The notes beneath the pieces were generated by a model that saw nothing but the letters and a program-made list of their open reading frames with translations, did not search any database and was not told where the DNA came from. This document shows, piece by piece, positions 11,776 through 63,707 of a DNA stretch of 64,000 nucleotides (position 1 is its first letter; the number at the start of each line of letters is the position of its first letter). The translations under genes and the position numbers were made by a program. The DNA comes from a virus. The stretch covers positions 1 through 64,000 of the IMG/VR virus record IMGVR_UViG_3300050821_008607; one strand, 5' to 3'.

Positions 11776-12506
11776 TGCTGCCCCCTGCGCCGGTCGCTGC
11801 CCTTGAGGACGACGCGCTGGCACATCTCGGTGAGCCGGGAAGCGACGCGGTCGCCGAGGGCCGCGCCGAGCTCGCTGGGCCGGACGTTGGAGGTGAACAG
11901 GGTGGGGCGCTCGGCCTCGTACCGGTGGTTGATCAGCCGGTAGTTGACCTCCTCGGTCCACTCGGTCGCCTTGGCGGCGCCGAGGTCGTCGACGAGGAGG
12001 ACATCGGCCTTGGCGTACCGGTCGAACACGGTCTCGGAGTCGACCTGGTGCCGCGGGCGAAGCGAGGCGTACAGGTCGGCGGCGGAGGTTGCGACCCAGC
12101 GGGCCCGGACGCCGGTGACGGCGAGGTCTCGGATGGCGCCGAACGCCTGGAAGGTCTTGCCGACTCCGGTGGGTCCGAGCAGCAGCAGCGACGGCCCGGT
12201 GTGGACGGCGACGACGATGTGCCGGCGGGAGCCTGCCACGAGTGCGTCGACCCAGGCGTGGATCTCGGGGACGTCGGCGACGGCAGCGCGGTAGTGGCGC
12301 GGGATCTTCTCTGCGCAGACGCCGAGGGCGAGCCGGATGTTGGCGTGCTTGCCGTGCGGATCGCCATCGTCCTCAAGGAGCTGGTCGATGTTGACGCCGC
12401 GTCGGACGAGGACTTCGCCGACGCGATTGGATGTGACGTCGACAGGTGCGGCGTGGCGCGGCCGGGAGTCGTTGAGCATGGCTTCGAATTCCGGGCTGTA
12501 GGTCAT
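11772..12506 (-). CDS. DnaC-like AAA+ helicase loader
   Basis: ATG 12506 overlaps the initiator stop (ATGA). Walker A is 'LLLLGPTGVGKTFQAFGA' (around residues 108-125) and Walker B is 'VLLVDDLGAAK' (about 165-175), followed by a sensor region 'LFTSNVRPSEL' and an arginine-rich end. This is the pattern of DnaC/IstB-type loaders, which bring the replicative helicase to the phage origin. The pairing with an initiator directly upstream supports that. Confidence 0.9.
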   Translation of the reverse strand: MTYSPEFEAMLNDSRPRHAAPVDVTSNRVGEVLVRRGVNIDQLLEDDGDPHGKHANIRLALGVCAEKIPRHYRAAVADVPEIHAWVDALVAGSRRHIVVAVHTGPSLLLLGPTGVGKTFQAFGAIRDLAVTGVRARWVATSAADLYASLRPRHQVDSETVFDRYAKADVLLVDDLGAAKATEWTEEVNYRLINHRYEAERPTLFTSNVRPSELGAALGDRVASRLTEMCQRVVLKGSDRRRGQQ

Positions 12507-13543
12507 CCGAGTTCCTCGTCGTAAGCGTTCTCGTCGGTGGGGTTCTGGAACGGCGGTCGTCGGCGGCTCTTGGTCTTGAGTGCGTCTTCGGATGCCCATT
12601 TCGCGGATCGGCGCATCCATATCTGCCATTCGGTGTTCCAGTTCGTTTTCCGCGTTCCGTCGTCGCGGTAGTGGTCGATGAACTGGGCGGTCTCGTAGTC
12701 GGGGTCCAAGCCGGGGACGGTGGTCGTCGCCCATCGGCGCATGCCATCGGTGAGGGCGAAGTCCTCGGGGATGGGGTGGCGGCCGTCAGGCCGGGAGCGG
12801 GCGGGAGGCAGCGGCGGGACGGCTACGAGCTCTCGGCCGCCCGCGCGTCCTCCCCCCTTGCTCCCTTGCTCCCTTGCTCCCTTGCTCCCTTGCTCAGGGA
12901 CGAAATGCTCCGGAGGGTTTCCGGAGGGATTCGCGAGAGATTCCGGAACGGCCCACAGGGTGTTCTGACCTGCCCCTTCGTCGTCTTCTGGGTCCTGCTC
13001 GTCCTCGTCGGCGGTTGACGGTGGCGCGTCAGCTTCATGGGCCTCGGAGGCGGCTTCGGAGGGCGCCCAAAGGGCCCCGGAGCGGGCCTCAGAAGTGACG
13101 GGGAGAGGCCCGGGGGAATTCCGGAGGGTTTCGCGAGACTTTCGCGAGCGCTTCACGAACCGCTCGGGGTGCTCCTTGCGCCACACCTCGAAGTCGCCCG
13201 GCTCGTCGTCCGGGCACGGCGGGATCTTGGACCGGGTGGGGTGCGACGGCTTCTGGTGCTCGCGCCAGTTCGGGCAGTGGAGATAGGGCCGCCCGTCGAC
13301 CTCGTATCGGCACAGCGGACCGGAGTCGGCAATCATCTCCAGCCACTCGCTGACAATCTCCGGCGTGATATCGCGATCCCTCGGAAAGCAGTCCGAGGCG
13401 ATCAGCAATTCGTCGTCGACGCCGCGGCCGTAGTCGTCGAGGTAGCCCCAGAGCAGGATGAATAGGTAGCGGACCTCCCGCGGCCACATGGACACGGTGA
13501 CGGAGGTGCGCAGCTCTGGCTTGATGGAGCGGATACGTGCCAC
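12503..13543 (-). CDS. Phage replication initiator / replisome organizer
   Basis: GTG 13543 gives 'VARIRSIKPELRTSVTVSMW' and then 'VRYLFILLWGYLDDYGRGVD', the conserved winged-helix start of actinophage replication initiators. The middle is acidic and low-complexity ('ADEDEQDPEDDEGAGQ'), then comes a repeated EQGSKGAR/EQGSKGG stretch and a C-terminal domain ('HYRDDGTRKTNWNTEWQIWM'). The repeat is encoded by five 8-bp units that may be the origin iterons, as in lambda where the origin lies inside O. Confidence 0.85.
   Translation of the reverse strand: MARIRSIKPELRTSVTVSMWPREVRYLFILLWGYLDDYGRGVDDELLIASDCFPRDRDITPEIVSEWLEMIADSGPLCRYEVDGRPYLHCPNWREHQKPSHPTRSKIPPCPDDEPGDFEVWRKEHPERFVKRSRKSRETLRNSPGPLPVTSEARSGALWAPSEAASEAHEADAPPSTADEDEQDPEDDEGAGQNTLWAVPESLANPSGNPPEHFVPEQGSKGAREQGSKGGGRAGGRELVAVPPLPPARSRPDGRHPIPEDFALTDGMRRWATTTVPGLDPDYETAQFIDHYRDDGTRKTNWNTEWQIWMRRSAKWASEDALKTKSRRRPPFQNPTDENAYDEELG
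12857..12895 (-). repeat. 8-bp tandem repeat (4.9 copies) inside the initiator gene
   Basis: On the plus strand the unit CTTGCTCC runs at 12857, 12865, 12873 and 12881, with a fifth, 7/8-complete copy from 12889. Because 8 is not a multiple of 3, the array reads all frames and encodes EQGSKGAR-type residues. Gain or loss of one unit would frameshift the C-terminal half. The array may be an iteron-type replication origin. Confidence 0.75.
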
Positions 13544-24881: not shown

Positions 24882-25400
24882 TTATGCCGACTGGGCGGCG
24901 TTGCTCGCGTCGAGCCAGGCCTGGACGCTCGACTGCTTGAAGCGGCGGATTCGCTTGCGTCCGGTCCCGGGAACCGATTCCACCGGGAGGCCGTGCTTGG
25001 CGAGCATTTCGTTGACCCACCAAGGGCTCACGCCGAGCCAGGTCATGAGCTCTTCCTGGGTCATCAGCGGTTCGGGCGGGGATGTCGTCGTTTCCATCGC
25101 GTTGCTACTTTCTGCTGTGGTAGTAGTAGCCATGGGCATGCTTGAAGACGAAGGCGTGCCGGTGAAGAACTCCTGAATGTCCTGATCTAGCGCTCGGGCG
25201 ATGAGGCTGGCCGTGGCCGGCCCGCACGTTTCGCGGGTGCTGCGCTTGCCGGGCGCTCCGGTGAGGAAGCCGATGTACGCGGGGGAGACGCCGATGCCGT
25301 CCGGATCGATCGCCTTTGTGGCCTCGGCGAGCTGGGGCCCGGACATGCCTGCCTCTCTCATCGCTGCGCGCAGTGGCGCGCCGCCGTCCCGTCGTTGCAT
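24882..25400 (-). CDS. XRE HTH fused to an excisionase-like winged helix, 172 aa
   Basis: ATG 25400. Residues 1-75: 'LRAAMREAGMSGPQLAEATK' and 'SPAYIGFLTGAPGKRST', a Cro/CI-type HTH, with 'CGPATASLIARALDQDIQEF' after it. Residues 110-165: 'LMTQEELMTWLGVSPWWVNE' and 'SVPGTGRKRIRRFKQSSVQA', a MerR/excisionase winged helix. It is the first gene of the early operon and divergent from the repressor; it may be both Cro and Xis. Confidence 0.8.
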   Translation of the reverse strand: MQRRDGGAPLRAAMREAGMSGPQLAEATKAIDPDGIGVSPAYIGFLTGAPGKRSTRETCGPATASLIARALDQDIQEFFTGTPSSSSMPMATTTTAESSNAMETTTSPPEPLMTQEELMTWLGVSPWWVNEMLAKHGLPVESVPGTGRKRIRRFKQSSVQAWLDASNAAQSA

Positions 25401-25635: not shown

Positions 25636-26013
25636 GTGGCCCCTGAAAACGCGCACCAGGAACCCGACGGCGGCGAAGACGTCCCCGCGCTGCTGCGGCG
25701 CGTCATGGACGAGCGCCGCTGGACCCAGAGTGACCTCGCACGCGCCATCGGCGTGCTCGTAGGAACAGTGAACACCTGGGTCAACGGCAAGAGAACCCCC
25801 ACGGGCGAGAACCTCCGCAAGCTCGCCGCCGGCACCGGCATCAGTGAGGCCACCTGGGTTGCCGCGACCGGCCGCAAGATCCCGGCCGAGCTCGACGCCG
25901 ACCGCGAAGCGCGCCTCATTGCCCTGTGGCGCTCGTTCACCCCCGAGGAGCAGCGCTACGCCGAGGGCTCCCTGGAGGGCATCGCGAAGGCCCGGGCCGA
26001 GTCCCACAACTGA
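25636..26013 (+). CDS. Candidate prophage repressor, XRE type, 125 aa
   Basis: GTG 25636. HTH: 'ALLRRVMDERRWTQSDLARA' and 'IGVLVGTVNTWVNGKRTPTG' (residues 18-60), then 'ENLRKLAAGTGISEATWVAA' and an acidic-basic tail 'FTPEEQRYAEGSLEGIAKA'. Divergent from the early operon across two palindromes and followed by the integrase pair, it is the best immunity repressor candidate. No Shine-Dalgarno is obvious, so leaderless or weak translation is possible. Confidence 0.75.
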   Translation: MAPENAHQEPDGGEDVPALLRRVMDERRWTQSDLARAIGVLVGTVNTWVNGKRTPTGENLRKLAAGTGISEATWVAATGRKIPAELDADREARLIALWRSFTPEEQRYAEGSLEGIAKARAESHN

Positions 26014-26147: not shown

Positions 26148-26429
26148 ATGTGCATCGCCGTGCGCTTTGTCGACCCGAAAGCGCAGTCGCAGCCCTGGAT
26201 CCGGGCAAAGCTGGTCATCAACGTCCCCTGGTCGGTCACACGCAGCGCAGCCCTGTACATCGTCCGTGAAACCCTCCGGGCGCTGGGCGTGGCGCAGCAT
26301 CATGACACCAAGGCAGTCTGCTTCTGCGGGGACCCCGTCGAGGTGCCGTTCTGCGCAGAAATAGTGGCGGCGGTGAGCTCCGCGTCTGCGATCTCCAGAG
26401 GCCGGGAGGCGATGCGCCGTGGCGCGTAG
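26148..26429 (+). CDS. Hypothetical protein, 93 aa, coupled to the integrase
   Basis: ATG 26148 is preferred over the long frame to 25926, which overlaps the repressor; a GGGGG/GAGG site precedes it. 'MCIAVRFVDPKAQSQPWIRA' then 'RSAALYIVRETLRALGV' and 'KAVCFCGDPVEVPFCAEIVA', with a Cys-x-Cys. It overlaps the integrase start by 11 nt. A recombination directionality or accessory role is possible but unsupported by homology. Confidence 0.55.
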   Translation: MCIAVRFVDPKAQSQPWIRAKLVINVPWSVTRSAALYIVRETLRALGVAQHHDTKAVCFCGDPVEVPFCAEIVAAVSSASAISRGREAMRRGA

Positions 26430-27681
26430 GGCAACGAACAACCCGCGGCAGATCCGGCTCAAGAGCTGCGGCTGCCCACTGTGCACCGAGGAGTTCCGGC
26501 CCGGCCAGAAGGCCACCCGCAAGGACTGCAAGGGGACCTGGCAGGCCCGCTACCGGGACATGAACGGCAACCAGAAGGCCCGCAACTTCCCCACGATGGC
26601 GAAGGCCGAGGCGTTCCTGGACGAGGTGCGGACCCGCGTCCGCAACCGCGACTACAACGACCCCGACCGCGGCAAAGTCACCCTGACGTGGCTGTGGGAC
26701 AAATGGCGCCCAGGCCGCAAGCTCAGCGAGAAGAACACCCTGGCCGCCATCGACTACCAGTGGTCGATCATCGAGCCGCGGTGGGGTGCGTACCGGCTGT
26801 GCGACATCGAATACCTCGACATTCAGGCGTGGGTGCCGCAGCTGATCGCACAGGGCCACGCGCCGAGCGTGGTCAACAAGGTCGTCGAGCTGCTGTCGCG
26901 GCTACTGAAAGTCGCCGTGAGGGACAATCGGCGCATCCCCTACAACCCGTGCGAGGGCGTGGAGAAGCCGCCGCCGCGCAAGGTCAGCCCCGAGGATCGG
27001 CGCTCCCCGAGCTATCGCCAACTCGACCTGATCCGCGCCGCAATGCCGAAGCACCACGAGGACATGCTGGAGTTCCTGGAGGAGACCGGCCTGCGCTGGA
27101 GCGAGCTGATCGGCCTGCGGCGCTGCTACGTGGACCGCAAGAAGAGGGTCGTCAAGGTCCGCCATGTCATCGAGGAGATCACCGGGCATCCGCTGACGCG
27201 CAAGGAGTACCCGAAGACCGAGGAGGGTTTCCGCACGATCCCCCTGAGCCCCCGGGCCCTGGCCGCGTTCGACCGGCACATGGAACGGTGCCCCGCCTCG
27301 GACACGAAGACGAGAGTCGAGGACGGCCTGTGCGAGGACGAGCTGGTGTTCCGCGGGGCTCGTGGCGGGATCCTGCGGAAGGGCAACTTCTGGACCGTGT
27401 ACACCCGGGCTGCGGTGCGGGCCGGCGTGGCGCGGAAGATCAAGCGGCCGAGCGGCAAGTTCGAGTGGTGGCCCACCGTCCATGACACCCGCGGGTCGTG
27501 GGCGTCGCGGCTGCACGACGAGGGCGTGCCCGAGGTGATCGTGCAGCGGTTGATGGGGCACAAGCGGGCGTCGAGCGTGACGTGGATCTACCTGCACGCG
27601 GCCGAGGATGCGGTCGACCAGGGGCGTGAGGCGCTGGAGGGGCGCGGGTCCAAGCGGCATCTGCGGGCGGTGGGGGAGTGA
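26419..27681 (+). CDS. int: Tyrosine-recombinase phage integrase, 420 aa
   Basis: GTG 26419 with GGGAGG upstream. An N-terminal arm-binding domain with zinc-type Cys ('CGCPLCTEEFRPGQKATRKD') precedes a SAM-like core-binding domain. Catalytic residues are Arg226 in 'GLRWSEL', Lys266 in 'YPKTEEGFRT', His355 and Arg358 in 'HDTR', His381 in 'GHKRA' and Tyr391 in 'WIYLHA'. All six expected positions are present, so it should be active. It sits beside putative arm-type sites. No serine integrase is seen in the window. Confidence 0.95.
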   Translation: MARRATNNPRQIRLKSCGCPLCTEEFRPGQKATRKDCKGTWQARYRDMNGNQKARNFPTMAKAEAFLDEVRTRVRNRDYNDPDRGKVTLTWLWDKWRPGRKLSEKNTLAAIDYQWSIIEPRWGAYRLCDIEYLDIQAWVPQLIAQGHAPSVVNKVVELLSRLLKVAVRDNRRIPYNPCEGVEKPPPRKVSPEDRRSPSYRQLDLIRAAMPKHHEDMLEFLEETGLRWSELIGLRRCYVDRKKRVVKVRHVIEEITGHPLTRKEYPKTEEGFRTIPLSPRALAAFDRHMERCPASDTKTRVEDGLCEDELVFRGARGGILRKGNFWTVYTRAAVRAGVARKIKRPSGKFEWWPTVHDTRGSWASRLHDEGVPEVIVQRLMGHKRASSVTWIYLHAAEDAVDQGREALEGRGSKRHLRAVGE

Positions 27682-27753
27682 TGGGCCGCGGAGTCCACAG
27701 AGTCCACGTGGAGTCCACAATGCCCCCGCTGAACCCCAGTCAACTCCTGCCAA

Positions 27754-27774
27754 CTACTACTGTAGAAGTAGTAG
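27754..27774. promoter_or_regulatory. Palindromic CTGTAGAA operator in attP
   Basis: CTACTAC 27754-27760 and GTAGTAG 27768-27774 flank TGTAGAA. The central CTGTAGAA is the half-site of the repressor operators at 25447 and 25585. It lies 36 nt beyond the first arm-site cluster. It may couple repressor or integrase control to attachment. Confidence 0.5.
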
Positions 27775-27880
27775 ATGGCGGGAAGTCCGAGGTGAGCGGC
27801 AATCAGGCTCCCACCTCGGGCAACATCATCACGGGGTGTCAGTCCGCGCATGTTCGGGCGGAGAAGATGGCGGTCTTGAA

Positions 27881-27890
27881 CTGTAGAAGG
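27881..27890 (+). promoter_or_regulatory. Single CTGTAGAAGG half-site in attP
   Basis: An exact copy of the right arm of the 25585-25615 operator. There is no mirror half-site. It lies between the two arm-site clusters and may be a stoperator-like or accessory site. Confidence 0.35.
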
Positions 27891-28158
27891 ATCAGCCGGG
27901 CGACTTGACGGCAGGTCAGAGGCCATTCTTCCCACGCGGCGGGTGCCCCTGGGGTGGCCGGATTGAAGATCGGAGTCCACTTGGAGTCCACAAAGTCGCG
28001 TCACCCATTCGGGTCACAGCTTGATCGAACGCTGGACGGACCCTGGTTGCACCTGGAAACTAGATGCATGGGGAGGCGTCCTGCGGGGCGCCTGATACGC
28101 GTCCTCTCCCATGGCCCCGTGCGGGGCTGGCCCTCGGGCCGCGGAGAGCCCACATGGG

Positions 28159-28631: not shown

Positions 28632-28955
28632 GTGGGCCGGGTGCCCCAGGTAGAACCACCCGACGACCGAACCCTGCGCCGGCGACGCGAACTCGGTGAT
28701 CGTGTCCGCAGTCTGCGGCTCTGGCGGAACCTGGCGCAAGACCGCACCGCGCACGCCGCAGGCATGTCCCGCAGCACCCTCCAGCGCGTCGAGTACGGCC
28801 AGACCGCCCTGTCCGTGGACAGACTCTGGGCCATCGCCGACATACTCCGCGTGCCCGTGACCTGGCTGCTTACTGACGACTGGTCTCACTCTGGCGAGGC
28901 TGGCGCGGGCGATGAAGACCCCCCGCCACCTCCCGCCACCCCGCGCCACCGTTAA
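28632..28955 (+). CDS. XRE-family regulator, 107 aa
   Basis: GTG 28632 (GTG 28641 is an alternative start). HTH: 'LGDRVRSLRLWRNLAQDRTA' and 'HAAGMSRSTLQRVEYGQTAL', then 'SVDRLWAIADILRVPVTWLL', a standard lambda-repressor-like fold. The C-terminus is Pro-rich. It differs in style from the phage repressor. It opens the host-like stretch 28.6-32.0 kb. Confidence 0.75.
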   Translation: MGRVPQVEPPDDRTLRRRRELGDRVRSLRLWRNLAQDRTAHAAGMSRSTLQRVEYGQTALSVDRLWAIADILRVPVTWLLTDDWSHSGEAGAGDEDPPPPPATPRHR

Positions 28956-60635: not shown

Positions 60636-63600
60636 CTATGCGCTCAGGACGGCACACCGACACCGTGGGTGCGCCGGTACGGATCGGTCCCCCGAGGGGA
60701 ATGAGGCGCCGAGCTGGATCGGCCCGGCCCCGGCGTTGGCGATACACCGCGGGCACGTTCGGCTGGACGGGTCCAGGGCCCAGCGGACTTGGGTGACGCC
60801 GAGCTGCTGGTAGCCGAACAGTGCGGCGAGGCCCGACGAGCGGGTGATCTCCGTGATGGCGACGGCCAGTGCCCGGTCGACGCTGCCCAGGGCACTGCGC
60901 AGGGTCCGGCCCAGGGCCAGGGCGGTTGCCCCGGCGATGAGACCCTTGGCCAACTCGCGGGCCAGGTCCCGGCGGCGCGTGTCGGCAATGCCCTGCGCAG
61001 TCTCGGGAACCTGGTCGAGGATCGGCGTCAGGCCCTCGTCGGCGCCCTGGTCGGTGATGGTCCGCTGGGCTCGGGCGGTGTCGCCGGGTGTCCAGCCGTT
61101 GCGCTCTGCCCGGTCGCCGGTGGCTGCGGCGTGGGCGGAGGTGAGGCCGACGAGATAGCCGTCGGTGTACAGCCCCGGCAAGGTGTCGACGAGCGGGGTG
61201 GTGAGGTCCAGGGTCTGGCTTCCGAGCCACGCCTCAGCGGCTGCGGTCAGTTCGCCCTGTTCGGGGCTGCTGGTCTCGTCGAGCTGGTGCTCGGCGAGGA
61301 ACCGGCCGGCGACGTCCTGGGCTGCCGCGGCGGTGAGGACGCCACCGAGTGCCGCGGCGATCACTGCGGCCCAGTGGTTGGCGGCGTCCTCGTCGGTATC
61401 CCAGCCAGGCCACTGGTCGGCAGCCCCCTGGCCAGGGGCTTCACCTTTTCCCGCGCCGACCTTCTCCAGCACCTCGACGCCGAGGGCGGTGAGGACCTGG
61501 TCGAGGTCGGCAAGCAGCTCGGGGCGCACGGCCGGGTTCCCGGCCAGTTGCCCGGGGTGCATCCAGGCGATCGCTTCGATGCAGTCGCCGTCCGGGTCGT
61601 CCGGGTTGGTGACATCCCGGTCGCCGCGAACCGGCACCATGGCCTCGGAGTCGACCGTCCAGACGATGCCCTGGTAGACGCCGTCCGGACTGACCCATGT
61701 GCCGCTCTGGACGCCCGGGGGCGGGATGGACCCGGTCTCCTCCGACCATTCACGCCACGCGCCCATGAGCGGCGACTCGGCCCCTTCGAGGTGACCGCCG
61801 GGGAACTCGAAGGTTCCACCTGCGGGGTCCTCGGGGTCGAGGCAGCGCTGCAGCATCAGGACGCGGCCAGTGTCAGCAGCGCGCACTGCGAGGCCAGCGA
61901 CACTGACCTCACCTGCTGCCTTGCGGACGGCGAGCCGGGCGCTCTGGTTGAGGCGCCGTCCGCGGATCGGGTCGATGGCGCGGAACTCGAAGGGCTCCCA
62001 CTGGCCGGTGCGGCGCCGCTTCTTGGTGAACGACCGGAACGCGGCCAGCTCGCTCTTGGCCAGCTGCTCCCGGTCCTCCTGGTCGTCGTTCTCGTCGTCG
62101 TGCTGCCCCACGAGGTCGTAGGAGGTGATGCCCGTGGCGGTCGTGATCCCCGCCGTGGGGGCGCCGTCCTTCGCAACCTCGGTCGCGGGGGCTTCGGCGA
62201 CGGGCTGCGGGGGTGGGGCGGTGGGCATCGCGTCGAGGCCGTAGATCTGCTCCGCGAGCGGGACGCCCTTCGCCGGCGGTTCCGGGGTGATGCCTTCCGC
62301 GCCGGTGAACACCGAATGTGGCAGCGGCGCGCCGGGTTCGGGGGCGCCGGTCTGGGTGTCGATCTCTCCCGCCACCGAGTACAGCGACGACAGTGGCACT
62401 GGGCCGGCGTGGGAGGTGAAGATGAATCGGGGCACCGGCTGGCCGTTCGGCTCCTGGAGGCCGTAGCGGCTCTCCCGGATCTCGGACGCGCCGACGACAC
62501 CGAGTTCGATGTAGATCTTGTCTGCCTGGGCCTGCTGCAGCCGGTCGGCCTGCTCCTCGCCGAGGTCGAAGGCGAAGTCGAGCGGCAGGCCGAGATCGTC
62601 CTGGAGGAACGCGGACAGGATCGTCTGGACGTGGCGCAGCAGCGGCAGGTCGCCGACGCGGTGCTGGACGTCGGCCTGCGACTCACCGCTGCTCTTGTTG
62701 ACGGACTCGGTGAATCCGAGGTCGGCCGGTACGACGTGGAATGCCGCCGCGGTCTTCCGCATCAGGAACAGGCTGAAATGATCCTGGAAGTCTTTCTCGT
62801 TGGACCATTCGATCTTGCCGCCGCCGGGCATCCACTTGATCTGGGCCTTGGCGGCCTGGTCGCCCAGCATCCAGGCGTCCCAGTAGGTCTGGAATGCCTC
62901 GATCTGGTCGGGGGTCCAGGTCTCGGGTGCGGACGCGAACGCGGAGGGGATGTTGCCCTCGGTGAAGCGCTGCAGGAAGTACGCCTGGAACCTGAGGTCG
63001 GTGTTGGCGTTGAGGAGGATCGTCTCCAGCGGCGCCAGCCCGTAGGGGCTGTTGGCGCGCTTGCGGAACGGCTGGTAGATCAGGTCGTCGCGGGTCAGCT
63101 GGTCCCACGGCAGGCCGTTGACGTACTGCACGAACGCCGGGGCCGGCGTCTCGGGGCTGTTGCCCCAGTAGTCGAGCAGTGGCGCGATCATGGTGCCGTC
63201 TACGACGCGCAGGCCGATGGCGTCACCGCGGCGGTTCCGGAGCCGGTACAGGGTTCCGGCGTCGTAGGCGAGGGTGTCGTACAGGAACGAGCCGAGCCAG
63301 GCGCTGAAGGACTGCTGGCCGTCGGGCTTGGCGAGGGCTTTCATGCCGATCTGGATGGCGTCGGCGAGGTCGCCGCCGTTCCCGTCCTTGGCGACCAGGG
63401 ACCAGTCGAGGGAGCGGATCGAGTCGATGCGGTGCCAGATGCACATCTGGGCGACGTCGTAGGACTCGATCAGGCCGCGCAGGGTGTCGAAGCTGACGCG
63501 CTCGTAGGTCCGCGGCCTGGTGGCCACGTTGTAGTTGGTGACGTAGTTCTCGGTGCGCGGGGTGCGCGAGTACCCGTCGTAGGGCCCGAGTGGTGTGCCG

Positions 63601-63707
63601 GGGCTGAACGGCGACGCCGGGGTCATCTGGGATGCTGCCTGGCCTGCCGCGATGGCTGCGGGCACGTTCGTTCCGTAGGTCTTGACCAGGCGGCGGGGGT
63701 CGGGCAC
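60636..63707 (-). CDS. Portal-Nudix-MuF fusion protein, 1023 aa
   Basis: GTG or ATG at 63707 ('MPDPRRLVKTYGTNVPAAIA'). Residues 45-430 are the portal ('VAQMCIWHRIDSIRSLDWSL', 'GLAPLETILLNANTDLRFQA'). A linker follows, then a complete Nudix box 'GHLEGAESPLMGAWREWSEE' plus 'TGS' at about 636-658, flanked by 'GTFEFPG'. The C-terminus 'SRTCPRCIANAGAGPIQLGA' to 'PAHPRCRCAVLS' is a MuF head-morphogenesis tail. Portal-MuF fusions are known; the inserted Nudix enzyme is unusual. Confidence 0.85.
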   Translation of the reverse strand: MPDPRRLVKTYGTNVPAAIAAGQAASQMTPASPFSPGTPLGPYDGYSRTPRTENYVTNYNVATRPRTYERVSFDTLRGLIESYDVAQMCIWHRIDSIRSLDWSLVAKDGNGGDLADAIQIGMKALAKPDGQQSFSAWLGSFLYDTLAYDAGTLYRLRNRRGDAIGLRVVDGTMIAPLLDYWGNSPETPAPAFVQYVNGLPWDQLTRDDLIYQPFRKRANSPYGLAPLETILLNANTDLRFQAYFLQRFTEGNIPSAFASAPETWTPDQIEAFQTYWDAWMLGDQAAKAQIKWMPGGGKIEWSNEKDFQDHFSLFLMRKTAAAFHVVPADLGFTESVNKSSGESQADVQHRVGDLPLLRHVQTILSAFLQDDLGLPLDFAFDLGEEQADRLQQAQADKIYIELGVVGASEIRESRYGLQEPNGQPVPRFIFTSHAGPVPLSSLYSVAGEIDTQTGAPEPGAPLPHSVFTGAEGITPEPPAKGVPLAEQIYGLDAMPTAPPPQPVAEAPATEVAKDGAPTAGITTATGITSYDLVGQHDDENDDQEDREQLAKSELAAFRSFTKKRRRTGQWEPFEFRAIDPIRGRRLNQSARLAVRKAAGEVSVAGLAVRAADTGRVLMLQRCLDPEDPAGGTFEFPGGHLEGAESPLMGAWREWSEETGSIPPPGVQSGTWVSPDGVYQGIVWTVDSEAMVPVRGDRDVTNPDDPDGDCIEAIAWMHPGQLAGNPAVRPELLADLDQVLTALGVEVLEKVGAGKGEAPGQGAADQWPGWDTDEDAANHWAAVIAAALGGVLTAAAAQDVAGRFLAEHQLDETSSPEQGELTAAAEAWLGSQTLDLTTPLVDTLPGLYTDGYLVGLTSAHAAATGDRAERNGWTPGDTARAQRTITDQGADEGLTPILDQVPETAQGIADTRRRDLARELAKGLIAGATALALGRTLRSALGSVDRALAVAITEITRSSGLAALFGYQQLGVTQVRWALDPSSRTCPRCIANAGAGPIQLGASFPSGDRSVPAHPRCRCAVLSA

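Follow-up and report, generated by a model that had tools for sequence, protein, structure and literature searches.

A predicted attP with two clusters of integrase arm-type sites and a non-tRNA core in a circular 98-kb virus record

Streptomyces phages VWB and mu1/6 carry integrase and attP systems that both serve as integrating vectors (PMC12924846). In the reference phages, the region 3' of the integrase gene (int) consists of arms built from GAGTCCAC or GATGCCAC, ~125 bp, the core, ~107 bp, and a second arm pair; the second pair of VWB was excluded from this layout because it would span the start of the VWB record, in which a repeat region beside int is annotated, as is the attP. The locus described here lies in a window of 64,000 nucleotides, namely bases 1-64000 of a virus record of 98,183 bp. 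It very probably represents the intact attP of a temperate Streptomyces-type phage, present in an unintegrated genome that is circular or circularly permuted.

The tyrosine integrase gene (26419-27681, + strand) encodes 420 aa matching PF00589 (E 3.5e-18), and its closest named relatives are the integrases of Streptomyces phages mu1/6, OnionKnight, SF3, and VWB, to which it is 43-46% identical along almost its entire length. Residues R226, K266, H355, R358, H381, and Y391 are invariant in the alignment with these four integrases and presumably correspond to the catalytic set of tyrosine integrases; the gene thus appears intact, with a full set of catalytic residues. It belongs to a lysogeny module of conserved order, consisting of a Cro/excisionase-like ORF on the - strand followed on the + strand by a helix-turn-helix (HTH) regulator, a small ORF, int, the att region, and another HTH regulator. 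The first ORF (24882-25400, - strand) is a candidate directionality factor that combines a Cro-like repressor domain (phrog_14639, E 9.7e-21, residues 2-98) with an excisionase-like domain (phrog_66, E 7.9e-9, residues 56-170). The two domains are similar to gp33 and gp34 of OnionKnight, which are separate, overlapping genes, and the ORF is possibly a repressor-excisionase fusion. The HTH regulator upstream of int (25636-26013, + strand; HTH_3, E 1.8e-11) shows 42% identity to its same-position counterparts in mu1/6 and OnionKnight, while the one downstream of attP (28632-28955, + strand; HTH_3, E 5.2e-13) shows 36% to the mu1/6 counterpart, again at the same position, and 39% to that of a metagenomic relative (L070).

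Leftward of the module lie recombination genes, an antirepressor gene, and replication genes, and rightward lie helicase, endolysin, tail, tape-measure, and portal genes, in line with the suggestion of an earlier note on this DNA that the early and late regions are continuous around the site. Phage genes flank the site on both sides, with no host flank in the record. Relatives in the structural and helicase genes are contigs of 87-99 kb; the helicase matches that of Saccharomonospora phage PIS 136 at 48%, and the portal that of Arthrobacter phage Sonali at 46%. None of the structural-gene relatives bears the same integrase. Other tyrosine integrases are encoded there instead, so the lysogeny module is mosaic and seemingly exchanged as a unit. 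As in Sonali, portal, NUDIX, and MuF/minor-head parts are found in a single protein, here of 1023 aa (60636-63707, - strand).

The repeat GAGTCCAC occurs in five exact copies on the + strand, at 27691, 27700, 27711, 27973, and 27984, the first beginning 9 bp after the int stop (27681 to 27691), and no further exact copy was found on either strand of the 64,000-nt window. The claim of five repeats in two clusters about 255 bp apart is thus borne out, with three copies on the left, two on the right, and a gap of 254 bp (27719-27972). The left cluster (27691-27718, + strand) is predicted to form the P-arm, with three integrase arm-type sites at the same position as in relatives, and the right cluster (27973-27991, + strand) the P'-arm, with two such sites where unintegrated relatives carry their second pair. 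A two-copy unit, GAGTCCACNTGGAGTCCACAA, is shared between 27700-27720 and 27973-27993 with 95% identity. Within the clusters, the copies are spaced by 9, 11, and 11 bp, so the proposed helical phasing is nearly right, each step being close to one turn and the outermost left copy ~2 bp off register; the 9/11 pattern recurs in two relatives (L097 and L099). Five copies across the window are ordinary, and it is the clustering rather than the copy number that carries the signal, since shuffled windows average 3.7 copies. What is unusual is the density, as all five copies fall inside 301 bp, a span in which no 8-mer exceeded 4 copies when the window was simulated 60 times with an order-1 Markov model.

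A single-protein scan returned no close integrase relatives from either the isolate-genome or the viral-contig collection. A profile built from five integrases yielded 59 loci among the isolate genomes and 80 among the viral contigs, and ~100 related integrase loci entered the comparison. Tandem arm repeats directly follow the int stop in nearly all loci of group-level identity. Two types of arm unit, GAGTCCAC/GAATCCAC and GATGCCAC, are found after int (loci L004-L147) with multiple changes between them on the integrase tree, which offers a chance to map the arm-binding residues that read the difference.

As for the state of the genome, a question raised in the earlier note, the record answers it, as far as a sequence can, in favor of a free genome. 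The first 98 bases of the record are exactly the last 98 bases, giving a circular map with no host flank; the repeat has the look of a k-mer overlap left by assembly, and the record is best read either as a circle that closes at 98,085 bp or as a linear genome with circular permutation. ORFs cross the circular join in several frames, as expected of GC-rich DNA, and lend this weak support. A single integrated prophage should not yield such a record. An attP in mid-contig is ordinary for a virion or a circular genome and unsurprising in itself. A free, circularizing phage is the simple reading, with episomal or tandem states allowed and not needed. The record could also derive from a phage-plasmid that persists as an extrachromosomal circle, in which the integrase and attP are secondary or serve, for example, multimer resolution. 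The circularity of the record fits this, as do an encoded FtsK/SpoIIIE-like protein (76.4-78.3 kb), two replication-initiation-like genes (12503-13543 and ~86.6-87.5 kb), and ParA-type ATPases in two structural relatives (G411 and G418). Yet, a phage-plasmid seems unlikely, as the 98-kb record has no match to a ParA-type ATPase (PF13614), the left 24 kb lack DNA similarity to plasmids, FtsK is also present in phage PIS 136 and is therefore a gene of the lineage, and the complete lysogeny module is one of the integrating type.

Five head-to-tail copies of CCCTTGCT lie at 12855-12894 inside the first replication-initiation-like gene and may be origin iterons or a simple repeat. At 76356-78323 of the record (L002:12356-14323), the FtsK/SpoIIIE-like protein is encoded beside a DUF2637 protein, a pair resembling actinomycete plasmid transfer genes; FtsK is annotated in PIS 136 too. 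The second replication-initiation-like gene is followed by genes for an RNA ligase, a polynucleotide kinase, and a glycosyltransferase (record 86592-91191; L003:5092-9691).

Family spacing allows the position of the core to be predicted. Among 34 attPs from relatives, the strand-exchange centre lies 111-138 bp from the end of the left arm, 41-54 bp from a shared att-region motif, GCAGGTCAGAG, and 91-116 bp from the right arm. Applied here, these distances place the centre at ~27843 when counted from the left arms, at ~27861 by GCAGGTCAGAG, and at ~27865 by the right arms, predicting a core at 27843-27865 (+ strand), inside which lies an imperfect inverted repeat, TCCGCGC-ATGTTC-GGGCGGA (27843-27862). 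The GCAGGTCAGAG element (27911-27921, + strand) is unique in the 98-kb record and sits between core and right arm, the same place as in most relatives; it is perhaps a site for an excisionase or an accessory protein. A near-perfect palindrome at 27749-27779, GCCAACTACTAC-TGTAGAA-GTAGTAGATGGC, with 12-bp arms and a 7-bp spacer, resembles a recombinase core site, and its decamer ACTGTAGAAG recurs at ~27880. As a candidate core, the palindrome was rejected, as its distances of ~46 bp to the left arms and 208 bp to the right ones fall outside the 111-138 and 91-116 bp of the family.

The content of the core sets this site apart. A tRNA 3' end is present in all 34 scored relative attPs, and among the relatives with both clusters, only the metagenomic L070 is without one. 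This att region contains no T-loop motif, tRNA 3' end, or credible Rfam match, and the 3' end of a tRNA or other RNA was accordingly rejected as the core. On neither strand was there support for a core derived from the tail of a host gene, and no exact 20-mer of the candidate core was found in the viral contigs. The attB of this phage is thus predicted to be a non-tRNA target. A search by DNA similarity covered 393 genomes of Streptomyces, 395 sampled at class level, and 395 at family level; it gave no convincing attB match, returning instead scattered short matches in unrelated places in about the number expected by chance. These ~1,200 actinobacterial genome scans come from partly overlapping samples, and matches below ~20 bp would be missed; the same method applied to the SF3 attP as a positive control gave matches in 21 of 21 Streptomyces. 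The host may be unsampled, hence the lack of an attB match.

The lack of a recognizable host-derived core is the finding that speaks against an intact attP, and the site could be non-functional or its target could lie in an unsampled host. In the former case, the att site would have decayed, keeping its arms and a core without a match to any attB, and the phage could not integrate. The missing tRNA or other conserved core and the failure to find attB in the genomes scanned agree with decay. However, it fits poorly with the perfect 8-mer arms on both sides, the preserved spacing and GCAGGTCAGAG element, and the intact int, and a prophage of S. luteolifulvus provides an example of a working non-tRNA core within the integrase family; a decayed site is thus quite improbable.

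Integrated relatives clarify what the two clusters mean. In a prophage of S. griseoviridis (~41 kb), one end carries int, the left arms, and the 3' end of tRNA-Arg(CCT), while the opposite end carries the intact tRNA, then GCAGGTCAGAG, and the right arms as GATGCCAC-ATA-GATGCCAC. The arm clusters of the S. luteolifulvus prophage likewise lie at opposite ends, on either side of a duplicated stretch of 202 bp from a gene that, judging by its translation, encodes dodecin. There, the phage-borne 202 bp restore the rest of the dodecin gene (L009 / G001:C84, 149617 and 218163), and the prophage appears to represent a protein-gene attB within an otherwise tRNA-targeting integrase family. Because these integrated relatives have their clusters at opposite prophage ends, two adjacent clusters mark an uncut attP.

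The survey agrees with this. Of 40 metagenome phage contigs, 39 have a second arm pair 225-310 bp after the int stop, as against none of 23 chromosomal prophages; when near-identical loci were collapsed by hand, the comparison was ~31/32 vs 0/23 (Fisher P ~1e-14). All three testable reference phages have the second pair, as do three of 20 isolate-derived IMG/VR records, two of them matching mu1/6 and SF3 in record length and the third with a borderline score. The proposition that a site with both arms is attP and is absent from a single integrated prophage therefore holds across these samples. Here, the right pair starts at +291 after int with its copies 11 bp apart, compared with +249 to +277 in relatives, and the inter-arm gap of 254 bp compares with 219-241 bp. 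A circular assembly could likewise arise from tandem chromosomal prophages, as copies would share the same attP-like junction. This needs an extra assumption, and the presence of both arms in nearly all metagenome contigs is the pattern of free phage DNA, making tandem prophages very improbable. Short tandem repeats may serve as operators when they lie close to HTH genes, but a role of the present repeats as operators or iterons for a regulator or a replication protein is hardly credible, since nearly all related loci have them after int and integration parts the two clusters in prophages.

With an intact attP as the preferred reading, the integrase encoded immediately upstream would bind the three left and two right arm-type sites of GAGTCCAC, as well as a core-type site near 27843-27865. 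A lambda-like bent complex would then form and recombine with the bacterial attB, sending the two arm clusters to opposite ends of the prophage, and the Cro/excisionase-like protein (24882-25400) may help to rejoin them. The kind of site is already known; this family member and its predicted non-tRNA target are new, as is the measurement of how well the two-cluster sign marks unintegrated genomes in the VWB-type integrase family. Two arm clusters ~220-255 bp apart behind a VWB-type int distinguish unintegrated from integrated genomes (39/40 vs 0/23), and the lysogenic state in this family is thus readable from contigs without read mapping. With tRNA genes as targets in most members and the dodecin gene in one prophage, it is an evenly balanced proposition that the integrase lineage retargets by swapping the core alone within a fixed arm frame, the site described here having a further non-tRNA target, one absent so far from the genomes sampled. 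If true, core swapping would provide a natural series of retargeted integrases, with this phage as a new specificity. A temperate phage of 98 kb whose attachment site lacks a tRNA core is also a possible source of a new actinomycete integration vector.

Compared with lambda-type attP (P-arm, core, P'-arm), the locus is alike in the arm-type sites flanking the core and in the excisionase-like gene of the module, and differs in having its own arm sequence and integrase family. The S. luteolifulvus HIT-DPA4 prophage (L009, G001) falls with this locus in one small clade of the integrase tree and likewise has arms after int and a non-tRNA core, but its core is a 202-bp segment copied from the dodecin gene of the host, and no such gene is present in this attP. 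VWB and mu1/6 share the gene order HTH, ORF, int, attP, with the arms right after int and the core beyond, and mu1/6 also has an HTH gene after attP; however, both have tRNA 3' ends as cores and genomes of 38-49 kb rather than 98 kb, and the arm units of VWB are GATGCCAC. SF3 has a tyrosine integrase 43% identical to that described here, identical GAGTCCAC arm units in two clusters with the right pair 11 bp apart, an inter-arm gap of 240 bp vs 254 bp, and GCAGGTCAGAG at a matching distance. It differs in its core, a 43-bp tRNA-Arg 3' end found in 21 of 21 Streptomyces tested and not here. A tRNA 3' end core is usual and not universal in the VWB/mu1/6/SF3 group, L009 and L070 being exceptions like this locus, which shares with the group the adjacent integrase of the group, the arms downstream of int, and the second pair beyond the core.
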